Shown here: piece by piece, positions 9,155-11,500 of the stretch
Layout: each line of letters starts with the position of its first letter
Position numbering within the stretch: the stretch's first letter is position 1
Assembly: GCF_008728835.1 (NCBI RefSeq)
Contig: NZ_CP042582.1
Span: 3,313,001 to 3,377,000 of the forward strand
Origin: Hypericibacter adhaerens
GTDB taxonomy: Bacteria; Pseudomonadota; Alphaproteobacteria; Dongiales; Dongiaceae
Reading direction: 5' to 3'
DNA length: 64,000 nt
Notes under the pieces: model-generated
What the model was told of the DNA's origin: nothing
What the model saw: only the letters and a program-made list of their open reading frames with translations
Database searches by the model: none
Program-made: the position numbers and the translations under genes

Positions 9155-9348
9155 GCGAACGAACCGGATGGCTCCGGCTTCCCCCTGGGATCGAGCGACA
9201 ACACGCAGCAGGGCTCGTCGCCGGGCCCCGATCAGCGTCCGCGAAGCCCGGCAGAAACCGTTTCCATACAAACACATAAGTCCCGGCCGGAGAAAGGGGG
9301 CTGAGGCGCCGGCCTGGAGCATAAAACGGGCCGATTCCAAGGCTTTGG

Positions 9349-9377
9349 TTGACAGGGCCCCGGCCGGTCGCCATCTT
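9349..9377 (+). promoter_or_regulatory. Promoter of the leucine leader/leuA transcript
   Basis: A perfect -35 TTGACA (9349-9354) is followed by a 17-bp spacer and CATCTT (9372-9377). The predicted start is at about 9383-9386, on top of the leader peptide ATG at 9385, so the leader would be translated from a leaderless end. This arrangement is known for trpL of rhizobia. Confidence 0.65.
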
Positions 9378-9384
9378 TCCGGCC

Positions 9385-9435
9385 ATGACCCACCGCGCGG
9401 CAACCCTTCTGCGACTTCTGAACCCGGCCTCCTGA
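9385..9435 (+). CDS. leuL: Leucine leader peptide (attenuation)
   Basis: A 16-residue reading frame, MTHRAATLLRLLNPAS, with four leucines in two Leu-Leu pairs coded CTT CTG. It sits between the promoter and leuA and is 242 bp upstream of the leuA start. Leucine-rich leader peptides control leu and ilv operons by ribosome-mediated attenuation: scarce charged tRNA-Leu stalls the ribosome and favours the antiterminator. The predicted transcription start leaves no room for a ribosome-binding site, so translation is probably leaderless. Too short for usual gene finders; the call rests on composition and position. Confidence 0.72.
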   Translation: MTHRAATLLRLLNPAS

Positions 9436-9677
9436 GAGGGGTCGGGACGTCGTCGTTTCGGGTTGTCTTGCTGCCGGTGCTGTCATGGTCACGGATCCAG
9501 GATCCGCCTTTTCTCCCTCCCCCGCGTTGATCTCTCGCCCGGACGTTGTCGCCCGGGGCGAACTCCTGCTGCGACTTCGCCGCGGTCGTCGGGACTGACG
9601 GCAGCCCGGCGGCCGTAACGCGTGCCGTATTCGCCCTTTTCGACGAATACATCCTTTCGCGAGCGGAGTTCGCAGCC
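9436..9677 (+). promoter_or_regulatory. leuA attenuator leader region
   Basis: The region between the leader peptide and leuA has several possible stems. CGGAT/ATCCG around 9492-9506 is followed by CCTTTTC, which could be a weak attenuator terminator. GTATTCG/CGAATAC forms another hairpin shortly before the leuA ribosome-binding site. I cannot fold it reliably by eye, so the exact terminator and antiterminator pairing is not assigned. GCGGAG about ten bases before the leuA ATG is the likely ribosome-binding site. Confidence 0.5.
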
Positions 9678-11357
9678 ATGATCAAGAATCCCGAGACCAA
9701 ATACCGACCTTTCGCCAGCGTCGATCTGCCCGATCGGACCTGGCCTTCGAAGCGCATCACCCAGCCGCCGCGGTGGCTCTCGACCGACTTGCGCGACGGC
9801 AACCAGTCGCTGATCGATCCCATGGACGGGCAGAAGAAGCGCCGCTTCTTCGATCTCCTGGTCAAGGCGGGCTTCAAGGAGATCGAGGTCGCCTTCCCCT
9901 CGGCGTCGCAGACCGATTTCGATTTCGTCCGCAGCCTGATCGAGCAGAAGGCGATCCCCGACGACGTCATCATCCAGGTGCTGACGCAGTCGCGCGAGGA
10001 CCTGATCAAGCGCAGCTTCGAATCCCTGCGCGGCGCCAAGCAGGCGATCGTCCATCTCTACAACGCCACCTCGCCGGTCTTCCGCCGCGTGGTGTTCGGC
10101 ATGGAGAAGGCCGACGTGATCAAGCTCGCCGTCAGCGGCGCCAAGACCATCCTGGCCGAGAGCCGCAAGCAGCCCGAGACCGACTGGAGCTTCGAATACA
10201 GCCCCGAGACCTTCACCGGAACGGAGCTCGACTTCGCGGTCGAGGTCTGCGAGGCGGTGCTCGATGTCTGGCAGCCGACGCCCGACCATCCGGCGATCCT
10301 CAACCTGCCGGCCACGGTCGAGATGTCGACGCCCAACACCTATGCCGATCAGATCGAGTGGTTCTGCCGCCGGCTCTCGCGGCGCGACAGCGTGATCGTC
10401 AGCGTGCATCCGCACAACGACCGCGGCACCGGCGTGGCCGCGGCCGAGCTCGCGGTCATGGCGGGCGCCGACCGGGTCGAAGGCTGCCTCTTCGGCAATG
10501 GCGAGCGCACGGGCAACGTCGACTTGGTGACCCTGGCGCTCAATCTCTACACCCAGGGCATCGATCCCAAGCTCGATTTCTCCGACATGCGCGAGGTCGT
10601 GCAGACGGTCGAACATTGCAACCAGATCGAAGTCCATCCGCGTCACCCTTACGCCGGCGAGCTGGTCTTCACCGCCTTCTCGGGATCCCATCAGGATGCG
10701 ATCAAGAAGGGCTTCGCCGCGCAGGAGCAGCGCAATGACGGGATCTGGGAGGTGCCCTACCTGCCGATCGATCCGGCCGATGTCGGCTGCTCCTACGAAG
10801 CGGTGATCCGCGTCAACAGCCAGTCCGGCAAGGGCGGCGTCGCCTGGATCCTCGAGCAGGACAAGGGGCTCCAGCTGCCGCGCCGGCTCCAGATCGAATT
10901 CAGCCGCGTGGTCCAGGGCATCGCCGACAAGACCAGCCGGGAGCTCAGCGCGGGCGACATCTGGACCGCGTTCCGGGACACCTATTGTCTCGAAGGCCCG
11001 CAGCCCTTCGAGCTGCTCGATTATTCCAGCAGCGCGACGCGGCGCGACAGCCATGAGCACCGCTTCACCGGCCGCATCGCCTATGGCGGCAAGGAGCAAT
11101 CGGTCGCGGGCAAGGGGAACGGCCTGATCTCGAGCGTGCTCGACGCGCTCAAGGCCGGCTGGGGCATCGAGCTCGACGTCATGGATTATCACGAGCATGC
11201 CCTCACCAAGGGCGCCCGCTCGCAGGCCGCCGCCTATGTCGAATGCCGCGCCGCCAACGGCCGGACCATCTTCGGCGTCGGCATCGACGGCGACATCGCC
11301 ACCGCCTCGGTCAAGGCGGTGCTCAGCGCCGCCAACGGCACGACGCGGGCGAACTGA
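9678..11357 (+). CDS. leuA: 2-isopropylmalate synthase
   Basis: 559 residues, the long LeuA form (about 560). It condenses acetyl-CoA with 2-oxoisovalerate, the first committed step of leucine synthesis. The N-terminal TIM barrel begins with [16 protein letters not shown], containing the metal-binding Asp of the HMGL-like family. HPHNDRGTG and [10 protein letters not shown] are the other metal and substrate motifs, and residues about 430-559 form the leucine-binding regulatory domain. The ATG at 9678 fits the family start; the frame is open further upstream but that part is leader DNA. The upstream leader peptide implies control by leucyl-tRNA charging in addition to allosteric feedback. Confidence 0.95.
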
Positions 11358-11401: not shown

Positions 11402-11489
11402 CCCTCCCCCTACCCCCTCCCGCAAGGGGAGGGGGCGAGAAACTGAAACATCAAGCCCCCTCCCCTTGCGGGAGGGGGTAGGGGGAGGG
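11402..11489. repeat. 35-bp perfect inverted repeat between convergent genes
   Basis: Arms 11402-11436 and 11455-11489 are exact reverse complements, 35 bp each, around an 18-base spacer. They are built of C and G runs (CCCTCCCCCTACCCCCTCCC and complement). The element lies between leuA and the last gene of the polyene cluster, reading towards each other, so it can act as a two-way terminator. It looks like a mobile or dispersed palindromic element rather than an ordinary terminator, because of its length and absence of a T tract. Confidence 0.85.
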
Positions 11490-11500
11490 TCTTCAATCCC

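Follow-up and report, generated by a model that had tools for sequence, protein, structure and literature searches.

The leuA gene of Hypericibacter adhaerens lies in the window, by which we mean the whole 64,000-nucleotide stretch of DNA that was analyzed, and it encodes a 2-isopropylmalate synthase of the leuA_yeast type (846.8 bits against TIGR00970, cutoff 697.4). It is preceded by a promoter, whose -35 element begins 36 nt upstream of the start codon of a short leucine-rich ORF (uORF1), and by a leader of 293 nt that contains uORF1, a second leader ORF (uORF2), the hairpins P1 and P3, the predicted long-range helix P0 and a further predicted helix, P4 (Table 1). Each ORF closes with the same two rare codons, CGA-CUU, and a GC-rich hairpin comes next. 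The original prediction, a leaderless leucine leader peptide upstream of leuA, was right in this observation, which proved to be conserved, and its end coordinate of 9677 is exact, the leuA ATG being at 9678; it missed uORF2, P0 and the helix between uORF2 and the leuA Shine-Dalgarno sequence. Just 3' of leuA, a long C/G-rich inverted repeat at 11404-11490 (CCTCCCCCTACCCCCTCCCGCAAGGGG ... CCCCTTGCGGGAGGGGGTAGGGGGAGG) resembles a dispersed palindromic repeat element.

Table 1. Features of the leuA leader region, in positions of the window; helices and ORFs are predicted.
Feature	Positions	Strand	Remark
Promoter	-35 TTGACA 9349-9354; -10 CATCTT 9372-9377	+	17-bp spacer; 7 bp, then ATG at 9385; TTGAC 35-39 nt from the ATG in relatives
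uORF1, predicted leaderless leucine leader ORF	9385-9435	+	peptide MTHRAATLLRLLNPAS, then stop; promoter-to-ATG spacing kept in relatives
P0, 5' strand	9385-9406	+	first transcript nucleotides, uORF1 start codons
M1, CTG-CGA-CTT (Leu-Arg-Leu) rare-codon motif of uORF1	9409-9417	+	
P1 hairpin	9423-9446	+	9423-9431 with 9438-9446; uORF1 stop (9433-9435) in loop
P0, 3' strand	9460-9486	+	uORF2 initiation region into its start codon
uORF2, second leader ORF	9485-9598	+	in-frame ATG in 46/52 leaders, 15.9 expected
P4, 5' strand	9558-9580	+	GCGAACTCCTGCTGCGACTTCGC; uORF2 Leu/Arg/Leu codons and preceding nucleotides
M2, CTG-CGA-CTT motif of uORF2	9569-9577	+	
P3 hairpin	9582-9616	+	9582-9593 with 9605-9616; uORF2 stop (9596-9598) in loop; no U-tract 3'
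P4, 3' strand	9662-9677	+	AGCGGAGTTCGCAGCC; leuA Shine-Dalgarno (GGAG 9665-9668) to start codon
leuA, 2-isopropylmalate synthase, leuA_yeast type (TIGR00970)	9678-11357	+	559 aa

The arrangement TTGACA-N16-18-YAYNTT occurs once in the 64 kb, against 0.01 occurrences expected. What had been described as a good promoter is thus present, with conserved spacing, but its -10 element is weak when taken alone (3/6 to TATAAT) and a standard sigma-70 scan did not pick it up. We took relatives of LeuA from whole alphaproteobacterial genomes and from named records, which gave 124 non-duplicate upstream regions; in 93 of these (96 with a looser rule), TTGAC lies 34-40 nt 5' of the ATG that opens an ORF rich in Leu and 10-36 codons long. 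As a control for circularity, uORF1 was redefined solely by its frame with the CGACTN motif, ignoring the promoter, and in 66 of the 89 ORFs so defined TTGAC still lies 34-38 nt upstream of an ATG in frame, the distances peaking sharply at 35 and 36. Since this spacing is kept in relatives, it places the transcription start at the uORF1 ATG: the predicted first nucleotide, well supported at the sequence level, is the A of that codon or lies within a nucleotide or so of it. The comparisons bear out the proposed leaderless start on the ATG of a Leu-rich peptide, and we regard it as nearly certain that uORF1 is both leaderless and conserved. Its Leu richness, its rare Leu and Arg codons and the conserved promoter-to-ATG spacing support the view that uORF1 is ribosome-sensing in design. 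In the whole genome of H. adhaerens, the pattern TTGAC-N28-33-ATG-N9-39-CTNCGACTT has a single occurrence, at leuA; a pattern search of this genome for further leaderless leader peptides returned many unspecific matches.

The conservation of the uORF1 peptide is confined to the region of the Leu-Arg-Leu codons, and its first half varies freely. CGA-CTT is found in 68 of the 93 uORF1s, a set chosen without reference to the motif, and in these 93 ORFs CGA makes up 55% of the Arg codons and CTT 41% of the Leu codons, versus 4.5% and 3.7% in the leuA coding sequences. Pairing inside the leader fails to account for the strict invariance of CGACUU(A); slow decoding would be a reasonable explanation, which we offer as a guess. 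We rejected, as a general feature, the possibility that the CGACTT(A) repeats form a classical 1:2/3:4 versus 2:3 antiterminator switch, as their complements are not enriched overall (mean z -0.25 +- 0.21), with occurrences in single lineages (e.g., L172, L178 and L144). CGACUU is also complementary to AAGUCG of the 16S rRNA, a match of six nucleotides that is probably due to chance.

In 52 leaders the CGACT motif returns about 115-230 nt downstream. An ATG in frame with this second CGA, with no stop codon between them, is present in 46 of the 52, against 15.9 expected from dinucleotide shuffles, while the same test in the two other frames finds 11 and 7; on this result we rejected M2 as a purely RNA motif lying outside any frame. 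The stop codon follows 18-27 nt after the CGA in 39 of the 52 leaders, and the uORF2 peptides are recognizably similar within families. In the nearest relative (LeuA 90% identical), there is hardly any change in uORF1, in P1 and P3 or around the start of uORF2, and the middle of uORF2 drifts and carries an in-frame 3-nt indel. The Shine-Dalgarno sequence is weak at uORF2 and clear at leuA, which would suit a uORF2 start governed by structure. From the frame statistics, uORF2 is very probably a real frame that would be translated.

The hairpins predicted downstream of the peptide and before leuA are there: the leader has an MFE z of -3.0, with strong hairpins between the uORF1 peptide and leuA. 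P1 and P3 are GC-rich and follow directly on M1 and M2, typically with the stop codon of the ORF in the loop. RNAalifold recovered P0, P1, P3 and P4 unprompted, and the Rfam covariance models gave no match in 9300-9720 at E <= 1. Two further structures were observed. A hairpin CGGATC-CAG-GATCCG (6 bp) followed by CCTTTTCT lies within uORF2 at 9492-9514 and was found only in the genus of the window, where the sister species keeps the stem with a different loop. Another hairpin (GTATTCG...CGAATAC, 9627-9650) lies just 5' of the leuA Shine-Dalgarno sequence and is kept in the sister genome.

In P0, the 5' end of the transcript would pair with the uORF2 start, in the window through 9385-9389 with 9482-9486 and 9391-9406 with 9460-9479. 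For the 26 nt at the 5' end of the predicted transcript, paired against a 44-nt segment around the uORF2 start, the mean z over 45 leaders was -1.72 +- 0.18, with 28 of the 45 below -1.5 and none above 1.5. Shuffles are blind to shared motifs, and we therefore re-paired 5' ends with uORF2 starts taken from other clusters. Matched pairs reached -18.0 kcal/mol versus -12.9 kcal/mol (sd 0.59) for mismatched ones, a value attained in 0/2000 permutations over 30 k-mer clusters, with P1 and P3 acting as positive controls; covariation among relatives, named earlier as a check on the leader, finds P0, P1 and P3 coevolving. The 5' end paired with the leuA start at background level (1534/2000 permutations as low), and pairing of the DNA upstream of the transcription start with the uORF2 start was within or near the permuted range (112/2000). 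An unbiased scan of 171 segment pairs ranked P1 and P3 at the top, followed by three pieces of P0. In 21 held-out leaders, for which uORF2 was picked by length and position alone, the mean z was -1.90 +- 0.42, with 10 below -1.5 and none above 1.5.

In an alignment of one family (16 leaders), standard pairs fill 79.9% of the cells of P0 and P1 taken together, versus 35-41% when the strands are slid, and the 18 doubly changed cells were reached by 0/500 shuffles. In the clade of the window, 91% of the P0 cells are paired and two doubly changed pairs occur among six sequences. These pair counts are inflated by related sequences and hand-set registers, part of the covariation being shared ancestry, and P0 rests more firmly on the permutation and hold-out tests. 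The helix is weak in some leaders (e.g., L026, L128 and L141). Taken across the set, the coevolution argues with high confidence that P0 is a real helix.

P4 has a narrower distribution. In the window, the M2 core pairs with the downstream region containing the leuA Shine-Dalgarno sequence at z -4.6; two other leaders, L138 and L140, make the pairing from different sequences (z -4.5 and -3.1), and RNAalifold finds doubly changed pairs within the helix. Over all leaders, the M2 region shows a modest enrichment for pairing with the leuA start (10/2000 permutations), and the M2 core alone shows none. In an equilibrium folding calculation we masked the footprint of a ribosome stalled at either motif. 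Masking M1 lowered the cost of opening the uORF2 start from 12.7 to 7.9 kcal/mol in the window and from 20.9 to 7.1 kcal/mol in L002, with a drop in most leaders tested. Masking M2 lowered the opening cost of leuA from 17.1 to 11.0 kcal/mol in the window, so that the start is still costly to open, and lowered it also in L188 and L194; in most other species tested, the M2 footprint did not open leuA. On the all-leader permutations and these footprint results, we rejected the pairing of M2 with the leuA Shine-Dalgarno sequence as a universal feature and kept it for the clade of the window. As P4 is a clade feature, the last step of regulation may differ elsewhere; for H. adhaerens itself, we tentatively propose P4 as the final step, with the doubts nearly in balance.

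We suggest that leucine is sensed in two stages within the 293-nt leader, where two tandem leader ORFs control the translation of leuA by a leucine relay through P0, and we assign this reading a probability of about one half. Transcription would begin at the uORF1 ATG, and leaderless translation would start once the RNA emerges. With ample charged leucine tRNA, the ribosome on uORF1 would leave on reaching its stop codon, which lies in the loop of P1; the RNA 5' end would then pair with the uORF2 start in P0, and uORF2, with its weak Shine-Dalgarno sequence, would stay untranslated. With uORF2 silent, its stretch of Leu codons would in this clade pair with the leuA Shine-Dalgarno sequence through P4, and leuA would be off. 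When leucine is short, the ribosome would pause on CUG-CGA-CUU of uORF1, its footprint blocking P0, so that uORF2 would be translated; a ribosome pausing there on the second CUG-CGA-CUU would open P4 and allow leuA to be translated. The second step may vary by clade, with P4 acting here and Rho or other structures elsewhere. The elements from which this reading is built are visible in the sequence, namely, uORF1 with its leaderless spacing, the frame of uORF2, the coevolving P0, P1 and P3 and, in the clade of the window, P4; from them we infer that either ORF is translated, that ribosomes stall and that leucine is the signal, as well as the direction in which leuA is regulated. Speaking against the relay, P0 would hide the uORF1 start as well. 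It is possible, and we put it forward with some reserve, that the leader represents a widespread alphaproteobacterial leuA element with a leucine-sensing leaderless ORF and, locked by the 5' end of the RNA itself, a second ORF that also senses leucine, the two acting as a relay in two steps for amino acid control.

Several other mechanisms could make use of the same elements. In classical ribosome-mediated transcription attenuation, stalling at Leu codons would toggle an antiterminator against an intrinsic terminator. Ribosome-mediated attenuation with leaderless translation was the mechanism proposed in the original prediction, and of this the putative leaderless, Leu-rich sensing ORF stands, whereas neither a conserved intrinsic terminator nor an enriched antiterminator pairing was found. 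Strong hairpins and Leu codons in the leader peptide would both fit such a system, and the genus-specific CGGATC hairpin with its downstream sequence resembles a weak terminator; but this hairpin is missing from relatives and lies inside uORF2, the complement of the Leu-codon motif is enriched neither between nor after the motifs, and the T fraction after P1 and P3 across the 52 leaders (0.26 and 0.25) is that of the background (0.25). We rejected an intrinsic terminator after P1 or P3 on this lack of T enrichment, and without a U-tract after the conserved hairpins, classical attenuation of this kind is not supported and seems quite unlikely. Termination might instead depend on Rho, if a uORF2 silenced by P0 left untranslated, C-rich RNA as an entry site and transcription stopped before leuA, the translation of uORF2 being protective. 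This would account for a general P0 alongside a clade-specific P4, and it agrees with the excess of C over G in the uORF2 body in 20 of 30 clusters and with a long C-rich stretch at 9507-9542 in the window. The bias is mild, however (0.322 versus 0.254), Rho sites are not reliably recognizable from sequence, and the strong P4 of the window's clade would be left unexplained; we see the Rho version as a minority possibility.

The two remaining explanations place the function of the leader elsewhere. P0 might act mainly on the 5' end, hiding the leaderless AUG or guarding against decay after the first rounds of translation, with uORF2 secondary. Indeed, P0 starts at the first predicted nucleotide of the transcript and includes the uORF1 AUG; yet its partner is specifically the uORF2 start, the 5' end pairing no better than background with that of leuA, and uORF2 is a conserved frame, and we judge a role mainly at the 5' end to be improbable. 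The original prediction also raised a dual role like that of trpL, in which the released leader RNA or peptide acts in trans, and the leaderless start on the peptide ATG is indeed shared with trpL (PMC7298713, PMC10117765). We found nothing to support it: there is no conserved terminator or other site to release a small RNA, the peptide is conserved solely around the Leu-Arg-Leu codons, and its first half varies freely. A variable peptide is by itself compatible with a role in trans, given that peTrpL is variable, too (PMC7298713), and we consider such a role extremely unlikely here.

Simpler or differently arranged leaders precede leuA in other genomes. In Sphingomonadales, Reyranella and others, a single leuA-proximal ORF carries the same motif. 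In Sphingomonadales and relatives (L033-L050, L190 and L208), one short ORF ends in LLRLTRP or LRLIRP before its stop, with CGACTTA near leuA, and some of these leaders have TGGAC or TTGAC at about the leaderless spacing. Leu-rich short ORFs or CTNCGACTN motifs were also seen before leuA in beta- and gammaproteobacteria (L052, L054, L055, L057, L061, L062, L066, L068, L084 and L098; an example from a Halomonas leader is CTACGACTACTA) and in cyanobacteria (L064 and L085), in some cases with TTGAC some 36 nt upstream of the ATG; the motif may predate the alphaproteobacteria. The second leuA of H. adhaerens, which is of the bacterial type (L229; 1379700-1382200 of the genome), has no comparable Leu-rich leader ORF, and a related-looking stretch, CGCTTTGACTGATCCGTCCCTGA, lies upstream of it. 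In another alphaproteobacterium, a bacterial-type leuA (L027) is preceded by TTGAC at the leaderless spacing and a Leu-rich ORF of 37 codons, so that the design may not be restricted to the leuA_yeast type.

Tandem leader ORFs that open one another have been argued for a few antibiotic-resistance genes and are still disputed there. If the relay proposed here is true, dozens of divergent leaders with coevolving helices would provide a natural and widely replicated test system, in which leaderless initiation, rare-codon pausing and long-range pairing of the 5' end could be tested as a metabolic switch; leaderless leader peptides would also gain a function beyond trpL.

Leader peptides with Leu codons, rare ones included, are known from the enterobacterial leu/trp/his attenuators, E. 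coli leuL among them. The leuA leader differs from these classical attenuators in its predicted leaderless start and its second ORF, and no terminator/antiterminator pair was found in it; a terminator was sought without success, and we therefore do not class it with them. A study by Vitreschak et al. in 2004 reportedly dealt with proteobacterial attenuators. In the open literature that we searched, we found no description of a tandem-ORF relay for amino acid biosynthesis or of an alphaproteobacterial leuA leader, and leuA goes unmentioned in a survey of five RNA motifs in alphaproteobacteria (PMC1273637).

Among individual systems, trpL of Sinorhizobium meliloti (rnTrpL/peTrpL), also an alphaproteobacterium, has a transcript beginning with the AUG of a short leader peptide in which the amino acid of the pathway is abundant (PMC7298713, PMC10117765); there, in contrast, transcription is attenuated and rnTrpL is released, whereas the leuA leader has two ORFs and no conserved terminator. 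The actinobacterial LEU element (PMC1262725) likewise has a leader peptide with Leu codons before leuA, Leu codons that pair with the leuA Shine-Dalgarno sequence, and no terminator. It has one leader ORF, and the corresponding pairing is clade-specific in the present leader; the criteria for the LEU element include a conserved pseudoknot (PMC1262725), and the likeness drawn here covers the leader peptide, the Shine-Dalgarno pairing and the lack of a terminator. Mutations of the Leu codons in the LEU element gave no classical regulation (PMC1262725).

By analogy, the leader resembles most closely the tandem-leader model of ermA, in which two leader ORFs (ermAL1 and ermAL2) stand in series before the regulated gene. 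According to one published model, a stall on the first leader opens the second, and a stall on the second opens the gene (PMC8274638). The signal there is a macrolide, and gene, host group and sequence are unrelated; moreover, the first ORF of the leuA leader is predicted to be leaderless, with its own 5' end as the lock. As in ermA-type leaders, P0 overlaps the first ORF and would hide the start of the second, and the ermA-type helix that overlaps the second ORF and hides the Shine-Dalgarno sequence of the gene may have a counterpart in P4, which is strong in the clade of the window and not general.
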